Below are positions 3,569-34,181 of a stretch of DNA of 64,000 nucleotides, piece by piece. The stretch comes from Gemmobacter megaterium. Its GTDB lineage: Bacteria; Pseudomonadota; Alphaproteobacteria; Rhodobacterales; Rhodobacteraceae. The notes under the pieces were generated by a model, which saw only the letters and a list, made by a program, of their open reading frames with translations, was not told the DNA's origin and ran no database searches. Location of the stretch: NCBI RefSeq assembly GCF_900156815.1, contig NZ_FTOT01000001.1, forward strand, positions 186,001-250,000, written 5' to 3'. A program made the translations under genes and the position numbers. Every line of letters starts with the position of its first letter. Within the stretch, counting starts at the first letter, position 1.

Positions 3569-4765
3569 TCAGTTGGTTGCGGCCAGAACCGGGTTGACCC
3601 GGTCGCCATCGCGCACAAAGGCGCCTGCCTTGGTCACAACGCGGTCGCCGCCGGTCAGGCCCGACACGATCTCGACCATGCCGCCGTCGCGGATGCCGGT
3701 TTCGACCGTCACGCGGGACACATGGCCCTGCGCATCGACCCGCATCACGGTTGCCCCGGCAGGGTCCGTGCTGACTGCGGTGACAGGCACGGCCAGGCCC
3801 ATGCGCCGCGCCACCAGGATTTCGGCATCGGCAAACATGCCGGAAACCAGGATGCCGGGCTCCTCCAGCCGGATCCGGGCATGGCCCAGCCGCGTGGCCT
3901 GATCAACCGTCGGTTCGACCAGACGCACCGTGCCGGACAGCACCCGCGACGCACCGGCGACGCGCAGTTGCGCCGTTTGCCCCGGTGCGATGCGGATCAG
4001 GTCGCGCTCTGCCAGTTCTACCCGCAGCTCCAGCGCGCCGTCGCGCATCAAGGTGAACATCGGCTGACCTGCGGCCGATGCGATGGCGCCGACCTGCGCG
4101 TTGCGGGCCACGATCGCCCCGGCCACCGGGGCCACCACATCGGTCCGGTTGAGGTTGAGTTCGACATTCGCCAACTGGGCCTCGGTGCTGGTCAACTGCG
4201 CCCGCGCGGCTTCAAGCGACTGGCGGGCCACGGTGACACGGGCCGTCGCGGCCATGGCACTGGTCTGCGCCTGATCCAGCGCGGCCTGGCTGGCATTGCC
4301 ACCCTCGCGCAGGGCGCGGGCACGATCGGCGACCCGCCGTGCTTCGTCCGAGGAGGCTTCGGCCTCCAGCACCTGCGCCTCGGCCTGGGCCACGGTGGCG
4401 CGGGCCGCCGCGACAGAGGCCAGCAACTGGCTGCGGTTCAGGTCAAGCGTGGTCTTGGACAGCCGCGCCAGCACCTGGCCCTCGGCCACCCGGTCTCCGA
4501 CATCGGCAAGCAGCGCGTCAATCGGCTGGCCTTCGATCAGGGGCGCCACCTGAACGGTTTCCAGCGCCTGCACCAGCCCGCCCGCAAAGATGCGGTCGGA
4601 CAGCGATGCCACCTTGACCGGCGACACGGTGATCGCGGGCAGCACCGGGGCCGGTGCCCCGGCGGCCAGCGCGGTTGCGGTTTCGGCCAGCACGGCCTGC
4701 GGGGCGTGCCCCACAGTGGCCATGACAAGAACAAGCGCGATACTGGGAATGGAACGGGGTGTCAT
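3569..4765 (-). CDS. Efflux RND transporter periplasmic adaptor subunit (membrane fusion protein)
   Basis: This is a 398-residue HlyD/AcrA-type adaptor that bridges the RND permease to an outer-membrane channel. The N-terminus is a signal peptide (MTPRSIPSIALVLVMATVGHA). It is followed by a lipoyl half-motif (around APLIEGQPIDALLADVGDRV), a long alanine/glutamate-rich coiled-coil hairpin (roughly residues 105-175), the second lipoyl half (VAPVAGAIVARNAQVG) and a beta-barrel plus membrane-proximal domain. The ATG at 4765 overlaps the stop of the TetR gene by four bases (ATGA), which indicates translational coupling. The earlier in-frame start codons fall inside the TetR gene and give a non-native arginine-rich sequence. 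Confidence 0.93.
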   Translation of the reverse strand: MTPRSIPSIALVLVMATVGHAPQAVLAETATALAAGAPAPVLPAITVSPVKVASLSDRIFAGGLVQALETVQVAPLIEGQPIDALLADVGDRVAEGQVLARLSKTTLDLNRSQLLASVAAARATVAQAEAQVLEAEASSDEARRVADRARALREGGNASQAALDQAQTSAMAATARVTVARQSLEAARAQLTSTEAQLANVELNLNRTDVVAPVAGAIVARNAQVGAIASAAGQPMFTLMRDGALELRVELAERDLIRIAPGQTAQLRVAGASRVLSGTVRLVEPTVDQATRLGHARIRLEEPGILVSGMFADAEILVARRMGLAVPVTAVSTDPAGATVMRVDAQGHVSRVTVETGIRDGGMVEIVSGLTGGDRVVTKAGAFVRDGDRVNPVLAATN

Positions 4766-5403
4766 GTGCGGGATGTCTCCGGGCGGGCGGCGGCGACCTC
4801 GTCGAGCAGGCTGTCGATCTGGCGCAGGATCAGGACGGTCAGGGCCTCGCCATCGACATCGCCGATGCGCAGGCGCGTGGTGCAGGCCTTGACCAGCAGC
4901 ACGATCAGGCGGGCATGGGCGGCAAACCGCTGCCAGGCCGTATCGAAATCCAGCCCGGTGGCCGTGCCGAAGGCGCGGACCAGGTAGGTGGTTATCTCGC
5001 GTTCCACACGTCCCACGACGATGGCCAGTTCGGGTTTGCGCAAGGCGGCGGCGGTGATCTCGGCCCGCAACGGGGCATCGGTGCACATTTCGGCATAGTT
5101 GCGCACCCGTTCCGCCAGGGCGATCCGCAATGTGGCCAGCGGATCGGGCGCCGAGGCGACGCGGGCGAAATGCGCCTCGACATCTTTCAGATCATGGCGG
5201 ATCAGTTCCTCGACCATGGCGGCCTTGGACGGGAAATAGCGGTAGAAGTTGCCGACGCTCATGCCCGCAGCCCGCGCCAGTTCCTGCATCGACGCGCCAT
5301 CGAACCCCTTTTCGGCAAAGACATGCCGCACCGCATCGAGGATCTCTGCCTCGCGCGGGGTGGGAGGCTGGGCCTGGGCGTCAAGCGGCGCAAGATGGGT
5401 CAT
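4762..5403 (-). CDS. TetR/AcrR-family transcriptional regulator
   Basis: This is a 213-residue regulator with an N-terminal helix-turn-helix: AVRHVFAEKGFDGASMQELA, then AAGMSVGNFYRYFPSKAAMVEEL. This is the classic TetR fold, and the C-terminal half should bind the inducer. It is the first gene of the TetR-MFP-RND operon and overlaps the adaptor start by four bases. A 16-base inverted repeat at 5430-5445, 27 bases upstream of its ATG, is a likely autorepression operator. By family precedent it represses the pump until a pump substrate binds. The chosen ATG at 5403 removes about 90 residues of low-complexity upstream reading frame. Confidence 0.92.
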   Translation of the reverse strand: MTHLAPLDAQAQPPTPREAEILDAVRHVFAEKGFDGASMQELARAAGMSVGNFYRYFPSKAAMVEELIRHDLKDVEAHFARVASAPDPLATLRIALAERVRNYAEMCTDAPLRAEITAAALRKPELAIVVGRVEREITTYLVRAFGTATGLDFDTAWQRFAAHARLIVLLVKACTTRLRIGDVDGEALTVLILRQIDSLLDEVAAARPETSRT

Positions 5404-5429
5404 TGGGCAGGGCACCCTTTGGGGCGGGA

Positions 5430-5445
5430 GTGAACGTTCATTCAC
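5430..5445. promoter_or_regulatory. Candidate TetR operator
   Basis: GTGAACGTTCATTCAC is an inverted repeat (GTGAA, six bases, TTCAC) that also contains the perfect 10-base palindrome TGAACGTTCA. It lies between the TetR-MFP-RND operon and the divergent dioxygenase-hydrolase gene, so the regulator may control the dioxygenase genes as well as its own operon. Confidence 0.6.
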
Positions 5446-5659
5446 ACGCAGATGGATCCGAACCGGACCCCCGTCAAGGGCTGGACTCCTGCATTTTCCG
5501 GGGCTGTGGCGAAATGCTGCGGCGGTGCTGCATTTTTCGCCACCTGTCAGGCCGAACCGGCGTATGGTCGGGCGATCCGTAAGGCGATCAGGCGCGGGGC
5601 ACGCCTGCGCCGCTGGGCGACGGGGGCCGCAAGGGGCGGCAGACAAGAAGGGGCCGCAC

Positions 5660-7168
5660 ATGACCACAGGCATTCATCACGTCACCGGGCTGACTGCGGA
5701 CGCGCAGGCGAATGTCGATTTCTATGCCGGATTCCTCGGGCTGTCGCTGGTCAAGCAAACCGGCGGCTACGAGGATGCCGAGCAGTTGCACCTGTTTTGG
5801 GGCGATGCCGCGGGCAGCCCCGGTACTCTGGTCAGCTTTCTGGTCTGGCCGATGGCGGGGCGCGGGCGCACCGGGCTGGGGCAGGTGTCGGAACTGGCGC
5901 TGCGCGTGCCGGTGGCCAGTATCGGCGACTGGCTGACGCGCGCCCTGTCGGCGCATGTGCCGGTGCACGGGCCGGTGCGGGAATTCGGCGAGCCGGTGCT
6001 GCGCCTGACCGACCCGGACGGGATGATCGTCAAGCTGGTGGGTGTCGGCGACGGGCCGATGCGGATCCGGGGCGTGACCATCCTGACCGATACACCGCAA
6101 GAGACGGCCAGCTTCCTGACGCGGTTCGGCTATCGTGCCGCAGCGGTCGAAGGCCCGTTCCAGCGCATGGAATCGCAAAGCGATGTGGTGGATCTGCGGG
6201 CCTCGGCGGGTTTTGTGCCCTCTATCCCCGGCGCGGGTGTGGCCGACCATGTGGCGTTCCGCGCCCCGGATGCGGCAGCGGTCCGGGCCATGCGGCTTGC
6301 GCTGAAGGATCATGGGCCGACCCAGGTGCATGACCGCAAGTACTTCCTGTCGCTGTATGTGCGGGAACCGGGGCACACACTGATCGAATATGCCACCGAT
6401 GGCCCCGGCATGGCGGTGGATGAACCCGCCGACCGGCTGGGCCGGATCCTGATGATTCCGCCCGAGGCGGCGGGGCGGGCCGACGACCTGCGGGTCATGC
6501 TGCCGCAATTCGCCTTGCCGGGCGAGGAGCGGTTTCCGATGCGCGATCTGCCGTTCGTCCACCGTTTCCATCGCCCGCAGAACCCGGACGGATCGACGCT
6601 TGTGCTGCTGCACGGAACGGGCGGCAACGAGGCGGATCTGATGCCGCTGGCTCACCAGATCGCGCCGCGTGCCACGTTGCTGGGGGTGCGTGGCCGGTCC
6701 ACCGAGGAAGGGGTGAACCGCTGGTTCCGCCGCTTTGATGCCACGCGCTATGATCAGCAGGATATTTCCTTTGAATCCATGGCGTTCGCGGCATTTGTTG
6801 CAGAGGCGGTGAAAGGCTACGGGCTGGATCACGCGAGAATGGCGTTTGTTGGATACTCCAATGGAGCCAATATATTGGCGGCGATTCTTCAACTTCGTCC
6901 CGGCGTTGTCCGCACGGCCGTCCTGCTGCGAGGGCTGCAACCGCTGGAAGATCCGCCCGCGCCCGACCTGACCGGCACGCGCGCGCTGATGCTGACCGGG
7001 GCCGAGGATCCCTATGGCCGTCTCGCGCCGCCGCTGGAAACCGCCCTGCGCGCGGCGGGGGCCGAGGTGACTGCGCAGGTGCTGGCCGCAGGGCATGAGC
7101 TGACGCGCGAGGACGCCACCCTTGCCGCCCGCTGGTTGGCGGCGGCGCCATATCCGGCCGAGGGCTGA
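5660..7168 (+). CDS. VOC-family ring-cleaving dioxygenase fused to alpha/beta hydrolase (MhqO-MhqD-like)
   Basis: This 502-residue protein has two parts. Residues 1-270 or so form a double glyoxalase/extradiol dioxygenase fold, starting [20 protein letters not shown], with a second module around [12 protein letters not shown] and a metal-ligand-like IEYATD. Residues 310-500 form an alpha/beta hydrolase of the phospholipase/carboxylesterase type, with oxyanion motif HGTGG (His318), nucleophile GYSNG (Ser400), Asp450 and His479 as a complete catalytic triad. In Bacillus the homologous functions are separate genes (mhqO/mhqA and mhqD) for hydroquinone and quinone detoxification; here they are joined. 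The ATG at 5660 is preceded by AGAAGGGG. A second dioxygenase gene follows. The substrate is inferred, not shown. Confidence 0.88.
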
Positions 7169-7331: not shown

Positions 7332-8267
7332 ATGGAATTGCAGGGGATCCATCATCTGACGGCAATCACCGCAAATGCCAGCGGCAACAAGCGGTTCTAC
7401 ACCGAAACACTGGGGCTGCGGCTGGTGAAAAAGACGGTCAACCAGGACGATACCAGCGCGTGGCATCTGTTCTATGCCGATGGGCTGGCCAGTCCGGGGA
7501 CCGACATCACCTTTTTCGACTGGCCGACGGGGCCGGAGCGGCGGGGCAGCCGGTCTGTTGTCTGCACCGGCCTGCGCGTGGCCCCTGACAGTCTGGACTG
7601 GTGGGCCGACCGGCTGCGCAAGGCCGGACTGGCGCAGGGCGACAGGGGCGTTCTGGACGGTCGCGCATCGCTGGAGTTCGAGGACCCCGAAGGTCAGCGC
7701 CTGCGGTTGGTGGCTGATGCGGCGGGACCGGCCCATCCCTGGCACGGCAGTCCGGTCCCGCCCGAGCATCAGATTCGCGGGCTGGGGCCGGTCACGCTTT
7801 CGGTGAACGATCTGGCGCCGACACGCAGGGTGCTGGAAACCGTGATGAACATGCGGGAGGTGCGGGCCTACGATCTGGCGGATGCCGCCGTCCATGTGTT
7901 CGAGATGGGGCCGGGTGGCGCGGCGGCCGAGGTGCATGTCGCAGTGCATCCCGGCCTGCAACGGGCGCGGCAGGGCGCGGGCGGCGTGCATCACGTCGCC
8001 TTTCGCACACCGGATGCTCAGGGGATCCGGGCCTGGGCGGAACGGCTGGCCGCGCAAGGGATCCAGTCGTCGGGCGAGATCGAGCGGTATTACTTCCGCA
8101 GCCTGTATTTCCGTGAACCGGGCGGAACCCTGTTCGAAATCGCCAGCGACACGCCCGGCTTTACGGTGGACGAGCCGCTGGACAGCCTGGGCGAGCGCTT
8201 GTCGCTGCCGCCATTTCTGGAACCACAGCGGGCGCGGATCGAGGCGGGGTTGAAGCCGATCGACTAG
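7332..8267 (+). CDS. VOC-family ring-cleaving dioxygenase (MhqO/LinE-like)
   Basis: This is a 311-residue protein with two glyoxalase/bleomycin-resistance modules. Metal-ligand histidines lie in GIHHLTAIT near the N-terminus and [11 protein letters not shown] in the second half, with the third ligand expected in [10 protein letters not shown]. It should cleave aromatic diols such as hydroquinones with a divalent metal. A strong ribosome site (GAGGAGG) lies just before the ATG. It follows the dioxygenase-hydrolase fusion by 163 bases and is a clear paralogue of that protein's first half. Its stop overlaps that of the convergent CoA-transferase gene in the tetramer CTAG. Confidence 0.9.
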
Positions 8268-33269: not shown

Positions 33270-34181
33270 ATGTCGATCCGCCCCGTTGACCGCCAGAGCC
33301 TGGCTACCCCCACGCTGGAAGGCGCTGGCGTGCACCTGCACCGCGCCTTTGGCTTTCACGATCCCAAGCGCCATGACCCGTTCCTGCTGTTCGACGATTT
33401 CCGCGGCGACCACCCCGGCGACTATGCGGGCGGCTTTCCCTGGCACCCGCATCGCGGGATCGAGACGATCACCTATGTTCTGGCCGGCAGCGTCGATCAT
33501 GGCGATTCGCTGGGCAATGCCGGGCGGCTGAAGGCCGGGGACGTGCAATGGATGACGGCCGGGTCGGGCATCCTGCACCAGGAAATGCCCAAGGGGAACG
33601 CGCAGGGCCAGATGCACGGCTTTCAGTTGTGGGCCAATCTGCCGCGTGACCTCAAGATGACCACGCCGCGCTATCAGGACGTCAAGTCGCGCGATATTCC
33701 CGAGATCCTGGAAGATGACGGCACGGTGGTGAAGGTGATCACCGGCAATTTCTGGGGGCGCTCCGGTCCGGTTGACGGGATCGCCGCCGATCCGCTGTAT
33801 CTTGACATCTATGTGCCACCCCTGCGCCGCAAGACCTTTCCCATCGACACCCGCCGCAAGGCCTTTGCCTATGTCTTTGAAGGGGCGGGCAAGTTTGCCG
33901 ATGCGTCTGATCCGCGCGGCGTGCTGCTGGAAAAGGAAGTGCGCGGCGAGGAGGTGAACATCCGCGATCTGTCGGGCAACCGCACGCTGATCCAGTTCGG
34001 CAAGGGCGACGAGGTGGCGGTGCAGGCGGGGCCGGATGGCCTGCGGTTTCTGCTGGTGGCCGGAGCACCGATCCAGGAGCCGGTGGCCTGGCATGGCCCC
34101 ATCGTGATGAACACCGCCGAGGAACTGCGCACCGCCATGGCGGAACTCAGGAACGGCACCTTCATCAAGCCGGCGCATTAG
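33270..34181 (+). CDS. Pirin family protein
   Basis: This is a 303-residue bicupin. The metal site of the N-terminal cupin is complete: FPWHPHRGIET (His59, His61) and GILHQEMP (His103, Glu105). Family members act as quercetin dioxygenases or as redox-sensitive regulators; which applies here is unknown. The C-terminal cupin (IDTRRKAFAYVFEGAG) lacks metal ligands as usual. It is monocistronic, upstream of tal. Confidence 0.94.
   Translation: MSIRPVDRQSLATPTLEGAGVHLHRAFGFHDPKRHDPFLLFDDFRGDHPGDYAGGFPWHPHRGIETITYVLAGSVDHGDSLGNAGRLKAGDVQWMTAGSGILHQEMPKGNAQGQMHGFQLWANLPRDLKMTTPRYQDVKSRDIPEILEDDGTVVKVITGNFWGRSGPVDGIAADPLYLDIYVPPLRRKTFPIDTRRKAFAYVFEGAGKFADASDPRGVLLEKEVRGEEVNIRDLSGNRTLIQFGKGDEVAVQAGPDGLRFLLVAGAPIQEPVAWHGPIVMNTAEELRTAMAELRNGTFIKPAH

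Follow-up and report, generated by a model that had tools for sequence, protein, structure and literature searches.

A ring-cleaving dioxygenase fused to an alpha/beta hydrolase in Gemmobacter megaterium and many related bacteria

The fusion gene and its two halves

The window (i.e., the whole stretch of 64,000 nucleotides analyzed) carries on the forward strand, at 5660-7168, a gene for a ring-cleaving dioxygenase fused to an alpha/beta hydrolase. It is a single open frame of 502 codons (502 aa), running from the ATG at 5660, which agrees with the aligned start in most relatives, to the TGA at 7168. Three parts can be distinguished: (i) the dioxygenase half, residues 1-280 (5660-6499), made of two VOC modules (residues about 1-128 and 135-280) with the ligands H7, H197 and E243; (ii) a linker, residues 281-300 (6500-6559); (iii) the alpha/beta hydrolase half, residues 301-494 (6560-7141), with the triad S400/D450/H479. 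An earlier note on this DNA had read a pair of VOC modules followed in frame by an alpha/beta hydrolase, and this reading is borne out: both halves of the ORF align to solved proteins.

Among the Pfam families, Glyoxalase is over its cut-off and the Abhydrolase families are found only below theirs. The NCBIfam MhqD equivalog NF047577 matches the hydrolase half with an E-value of 1.1e-33 and 116.6 bits, i.e., short of its cut-off of 325 bits. This model is narrow, since none of the 14 control genomes, B. subtilis among them, reaches that cut-off. In a wide sense the hydrolase half is MhqD-like: it has a Ser-Asp-His triad, the nucleophile S400 sits in GYSNG (GxSxG context), and the fold is that of 2H1I/3B5E. 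The dioxygenase half has the features of the MhqO/MhqE/PcpA type, i.e., two VOC modules per chain and a two-His-one-Glu site. H7, H197 and E243 align with His-11, His-218 and Glu-266 of B. subtilis MhqO (3OAJ), the residues named as metal ligands of MhqO in PMC12673573. These ligands are invariant in the 54 fusion proteins (that of the window and 53 others, 53-77% identical to it), and so are S400, D450 and H479, the triad being located where the earlier note had placed it.

With phmmer, residues 1-289 match MhqO (3OAJ, E 3e-44) and residues 290-495 match the M. loti carboxylesterase Mll8374 (3B5E, E 6e-50). By sequence, the next solved proteins are 1ZSW and PcpA (4HUZ) for the dioxygenase half, B. 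cereus 2H1I and Atu2452 (2R8B) for the hydrolase half. The AlphaFold2 model obtained with the 54-row alignment is confident, linker included, apart from the very end (mean pLDDT 93.1, pTM 0.89, linker blocks 90-93, terminal residues <50). VIA-align was used as a second look at the Foldseek matches, 50 entries being listed. Among these, the best is MhqO (3OAJ), with Z 38.2 over 287 residues (residues 1-289), followed on the same half by 1ZSW (Z 36.4) and PcpA (Z 34.8). Mll8374 (3B5E) superposes on residues 281-496 with Z 33.6, 2H1I on the hydrolase half with Z 31.7, and acyl-protein thioesterases come behind with Z about 24. Among the matches listed, carboxylesterases and acyl-protein thioesterases come nearest to the hydrolase half of the model.

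MhqO and Mll8374 are, among the matches listed, the closest solved structures of their respective halves. MhqO shares the three ligands but has no hydrolase part and is only 34% identical; Mll8374 is 44% identical but stands alone. PcpA, a 2,6-dichlorohydroquinone 1,2-dioxygenase, shares the fold of the dioxygenase half with 22% identity only. No solved structure among the matches listed superposes on both halves, each fitting one of them. The DPP4-type entries, which cover a longer span, were discarded as full-length relatives for their rmsd of 17-19 A. BphD-, MhpC- or LigY-type C-C hydrolases are absent from the 50 entries, a list of re-scored Foldseek matches too short to exclude them.

VOC folds serve dioxygenase, isomerase and thiol transferase reactions alike; glyoxalase I belongs to this superfamily, and glyoxalase II is a metallohydrolase, unlike the serine hydrolase half of the fusion. 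The VOC half could accordingly be a glyoxalase-like isomerase or a thiol transferase whose reaction is completed by the hydrolase, and maize glyoxalase I and human GLOD4 do match the model (Z about 22). The likeness is one of logic only, a metalloenzyme making a thioester that a hydrolase cleaves (PMC4360819). The matches of MhqO, 1ZSW and PcpA are much stronger, and all 54 proteins retain the two-His-one-Glu set of MhqO, which makes this reading quite improbable.

Distribution of the fusion and constraint on its linker

Relatives were scanned with exact peptide patterns taken from both halves; the 54 loci returned, from named genomes, are therefore biased toward close relatives. The same domain order was found as one ORF in 53 of them, the remaining one (L083) being broken. 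The fusion-bearing loci belong to Rhodobacterales, to many Hyphomicrobiales (Mesorhizobium, Bosea, Labrys, Rhizobium, Aminobacter), to Brevundimonas and to some unclassified assemblies.

Of 295 sampled genomes from the family of the window, 130 match the fusion profile at E <=1e-20. Among the matches listed, ten genomes, that of the window counted, have an intact fusion (>800 bits, with 500 or more of the 509 positions covered) and one (G013) has a broken copy; the remaining matches listed are lone dioxygenases or separate pairs. Nine separate dioxygenase/hydrolase pairs were read as ORFs. In G030 a stop is flagged within the match; it is most likely the end of the gene, since one ORF spans query residues 1-493. 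At the same threshold, 11 of 240 genomes sampled from the class match, and 2 of these have the fusion. Three of four genus mates carry it, and G002 (90% complete) gives no match. It must be noted that one genome (G325) has two intact copies on separate contigs (L138 and L139).

The joining of two genes by a sequencing or assembly error has to be considered, as adjacent split pairs exist within the same family. All 54 aligned rows are free of gaps in the linker and of internal stops. In 11 locus pairs the linker pN does not exceed 0.07, with pS of at least 0.14 in 10 of these; the pair L057/L080 is too similar for pN/pS of the linker to tell. Judged from these substitutions, the linker is under purifying selection. 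With the same ORF in 53 loci of other genomes, this gap-free and constrained linker, and fusions of >800 bits in 10/295 family genomes among the matches listed, an error is extremely improbable and was rejected. The earlier note would have abandoned the fusion had it been such an error, with relatives carrying split genes; on the contrary 53 of the 54 loci keep one ORF. The fused gene has been passed on by inheritance in many related bacteria.

NCBI annotation already lists such fusions as 'VOC family protein' (WP_074967566.1). Among the papers listed from the open-access literature searched, no title or beginning of an abstract announces a dioxygenase-hydrolase fusion of this kind. It is an uncommon fused variant of a known pair and no new system.

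Neighbours of the fusion and the TetR-RND block

A second ring-cleaving dioxygenase (311 aa), of a different subfamily, follows on the forward strand at 7332-8267, as the earlier note had it. Its nearest solved protein is 1ZSW, with which it forms, in the dioxygenase tree, a well supported group together with the Skermanella second dioxygenase and Deinococcus. A third, more distant dioxygenase of the same type is found elsewhere in the genome of the window (G000:C24:76454-77377).

Neighbours were counted with tblastn in the 54 loci and the window, over about 4 kb on either side (less in a few loci), at E <=1e-20 (1e-10 for FMN reductase) and at least 55% of the seed. Five families recur beside the fusion: pirin (25/55 loci), second dioxygenase (22/55), LysR (22/55), FMN reductase (17/55) and GST (15/55). 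At least one of them is present in 44 of the 55 loci, at least two in 34, and none in 11. None of them is found in any of 40 control windows (9.5 kb each), drawn from 7 genomes with the fusion, on a different contig or >40 kb away from it; this control is partly post hoc, because the families were picked for recurring. For comparison, the whole 4.17 Mb genome of the window contains 6 genes that one LysR seed detects at the same level. The family names were borne out by Pfam on ten examples.

The window itself keeps only the second dioxygenase, LysR, pirin, GST and FMN reductase not being found within 4 kb of its fusion. A weak pirin-family match (28% identity) is located far from the fusion, at 33327-33905 of the window (G000:C27:219327-219905), and is the sole pirin match in this genome. 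Among the 22 dioxygenase neighbours, 13 (window included) group in the tree with the second dioxygenase of the window, four (L057, L066, L069, L080) belong to a different subfamily, and five (L037, L046, L050, L059, L083) were left out of the tree. The fusion is immediately preceded, in L057, L066 and L080 (Aquamicrobium, Mesorhizobium), by a separate pair of dioxygenase and hydrolase genes belonging to another subfamily.

On the other side of the fusion, a TetR-MFP-RND block is located on the opposite strand, i.e., divergent from it. The TetR regulator of this RND operon (Pfam TetR_N) occupies 4762-5406 on the reverse strand, the start at 5406 being our choice (the longest frame starts at 5673). 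The palindrome TGAACGTTCA lies at 5431-5440. It is exact; with one mismatch allowed, 0.85 chance sites are expected in the window. The same decamer occurs upstream of tetR in L030 (Gemmobacter nectariphilus, genus mate G001). With the chosen start, the distance from the decamer to tetR is 24 bases in the window and 22 in L030; this spacing fits an operator of tetR itself, which the palindrome probably is.

The earlier note had suggested that the fusion, the pump and this operator may form a single electrophile-defence unit. In its favour, block and fusion diverge from each other in L030 as they do in the window, with the palindrome upstream of tetR in both; an RND permease gene is found near a split pair of Paroceanicella (no other such neighbour was noted in the annotated plasmid regions), and a TetR-like gene near a fusion of Rhizobium WL3. 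However, within flanks of about 4 kb the block was not found in 53 of the 54 other loci, L030 being the exception, and the palindrome is about 220 bases from the start of the fusion and close to tetR. The claim of one unit is thus weakened to the point of being very unlikely. Between tetR and the fusion, the window contains a near-perfect inverted repeat (GTGGCGAAATGCTGC / GCTGCATTTTTCGCCAC, 5506-5543); it is not evident in L030, where this region aligns poorly.

Split counterparts, trees and putative function

Separate pairs, as well as trios of two dioxygenases and a hydrolase, are found in Bacillota, Deinococcota and Alphaproteobacteria. Pairs or trios were seen in Roseomonas, Skermanella, Meiothermus, Priestia, Metabacillus, Deinococcus and B. 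velezensis. Of these, the trios lie on plasmids of Skermanella, Meiothermus, Priestia and Metabacillus, and on two Deinococcus plasmids, where a MarR gene precedes them. Dioxygenase genes have a MarR neighbour in three Deinococcus plasmids and in B. badius. The fusion gives a context to these trios in three phyla.

The kinship with separate quinone-stress genes of Bacillus, put forward in the earlier note, holds; its choice of MhqO as the partner of MhqD does not, for in Bacillus and Staphylococcus the operon partner of MhqD is the dioxygenase MhqE, as described in PMC6798810. The split counterpart is therefore mhqED. In mhqRED of S. aureus and mhqED of B. subtilis, as in the fusion, a dioxygenase adjoins an MhqD-type hydrolase (PMC6798810), and a similar adjacent pair is found in a plasmid locus of B. 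velezensis (L128). The differences are that mhqRED makes two proteins under MarR/MhqR control, whereas the fusion is one chain with LysR near in 22/55 loci; in the window no MarR-type MhqR is next to the enzymes, the regulator neighbour being TetR. According to PMC6798810, methylhydroquinone raises the expression of mhqRED in S. aureus 35- to 67-fold, and the operon is derepressed when MhqR is absent. MhqA, MhqE and MhqO are termed thiol-dependent dioxygenases (PMC6798810, PMC4360819), still to be characterised in the words of the latter.

The dioxygenase tree (72 sequences, 18 of the 54 fusion halves included, midpoint root) places the 18 alphaproteobacterial halves in one clade (100/100) with a long stem. 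This clade arises from a fork (97/84) with MhqO, the MhqE-type protein of B. velezensis, the Priestia/Metabacillus dioxygenases, paired alphaproteobacterial dioxygenases and one Meiothermus protein; the B. velezensis branch is long, and the Meiothermus row may be drawn in falsely. The fork leaves the order undecided, so that neither MhqE nor MhqO is favoured as nearest kin. The label MhqE for the B. velezensis gene is based on gene order: hydrolase, nitroreductase and winged-helix regulator genes accompany it, in what we take to be the yodE-yodD-yodC-yodB locus. Dioxygenases paired with a hydrolase also occur outside the MhqO/MhqE branch (Gemmobacter fulvus type, Meiothermus, Deinococcus, B. 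badius), and pairing is therefore no mark of that branch alone. PcpA is located elsewhere, on a very long branch, with an unsure placement.

In the hydrolase tree (48 rows), the sister group of the fusion hydrolases is made up of Deinococcus hydrolases (100/99). Mll8374 falls within the fusion clade, on a long branch and with an unsure place. This solved orphan carboxylesterase, to which the fusion gives a context, retains part of the fusion linker; it looks as if it were a fusion relative stripped of its dioxygenase half.

A dioxygenase-hydrolase fusion is also found on plasmid pRadio2 of Deinococcus radiophilus (L100, 2986-4532), behind MarR and two further dioxygenase-type genes. A frame change splits its sequence into two annotated VOC genes. 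Its linker, LPDEERRPSRDLGWVHR, resembles that of the alphaproteobacterial fusions. For the hydrolases, an exclusive clade of D. radiophilus and the 18 fusions is rejected by the AU test (p 6e-5), because other Deinococcus join D. radiophilus and Mll8374 nests within the fusions. The dioxygenase pieces of D. radiophilus match Meiothermus as well as the alphaproteobacterial fusions. There may thus have been one ancient fusion followed by losses, or two fusions.

A natural fusion suggests that the dioxygenase and the hydrolase work in succession on one substrate, and it offers a single protein in which this shared substrate can be sought. By analogy with the known pairs, it is rather probable that the fusion is a single-chain pair of the MhqE-MhqD type acting in quinone/electrophile detoxification. 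The two VOC modules would bind a metal via H7, H197 and E243; the dioxygenase half would cleave, with O2, the ring of a hydroquinone or of a related quinone-derived aromatic, as its homology with MhqO/MhqE and PcpA suggests; the serine hydrolase half would then hydrolyze the ring-cleavage product. We infer likewise an induction by quinones, and a benefit of the fusion in that it would secure a 1:1 supply and the closeness of both activities. The second dioxygenase, FMN reductase (perhaps a quinone reductase), GST, pirin and LysR neighbours would fit such a detoxification module. Against this reading weigh the four neighbour families missing beside the fusion of the window, the 11 loci devoid of all five, the NF047577 score below its cut-off, the hydrolase pairing seen outside the MhqO/MhqE branch, and the inactivity of a purified MhqO described below.

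The papers differ on the hydrolase that accompanies these dioxygenases: MhqD is termed an esterase that might act in quinone catabolism in PMC6798810, and the mhq hydrolase a C-C hydrolase, as a proposal, in PMC12673573. The latter leads to another reading, i.e., catabolism of lignin-derived biphenyls or catechols, with meta-cleavage by the dioxygenase half and hydrolysis of a C-C bond by the hydrolase half. The same paper proposes mhqPOD of Paenibacillus for the catabolism of 5,5'-di(dehydrovanillic acid) (DDVA), gives a 400-1000-fold induction of the mhq operon by DDVA, and mentions mhqO-hydrolase pairs in Agrobacterium and Ochrobactrum (PMC12673573). Some rarer neighbours of the fusion point the same way: ABC-transporter ATPases (9 loci), isochorismatase-type hydrolases (7), a TctC-type receptor (5) and aldehyde dehydrogenase (4). 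The ABC-transporter and TctC genes, which speak against the quinone reading, would suit uptake and catabolism. However, purified Paenibacillus MhqO was inactive on four substrates, hydroquinones not among these, according to PMC12673573, and the hydrolase half is closest, among the matches listed, to carboxylesterases/acyl-protein thioesterases. Biphenyl catabolism is thus unlikely; quinone detoxification is favoured over it because pirin, LysR, dioxygenase, FMN reductase and GST are the commonest neighbours.

A more speculative form of the quinone reading, to which a rather low but real probability is given, is that the fusion removes thiol adducts. Quinones and glutathione give thiol-hydroquinone adducts. 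PcpA-type cleavage beside a chlorine gives an acyl chloride; in the same way, opening the ring at the bond that joins the carbon with the hydroxyl to the carbon with the sulfur would give a thioester. The acyl-protein-thioesterase-like half would hydrolyze this thioester at once, releasing glutathione and a harmless acid. If true, de-adduction would account for the association of a carboxylesterase-like protein with a ring-cleaving dioxygenase, seen from Bacillus to Paracoccus, as well as for the recurrence of GST genes beside the fusion.
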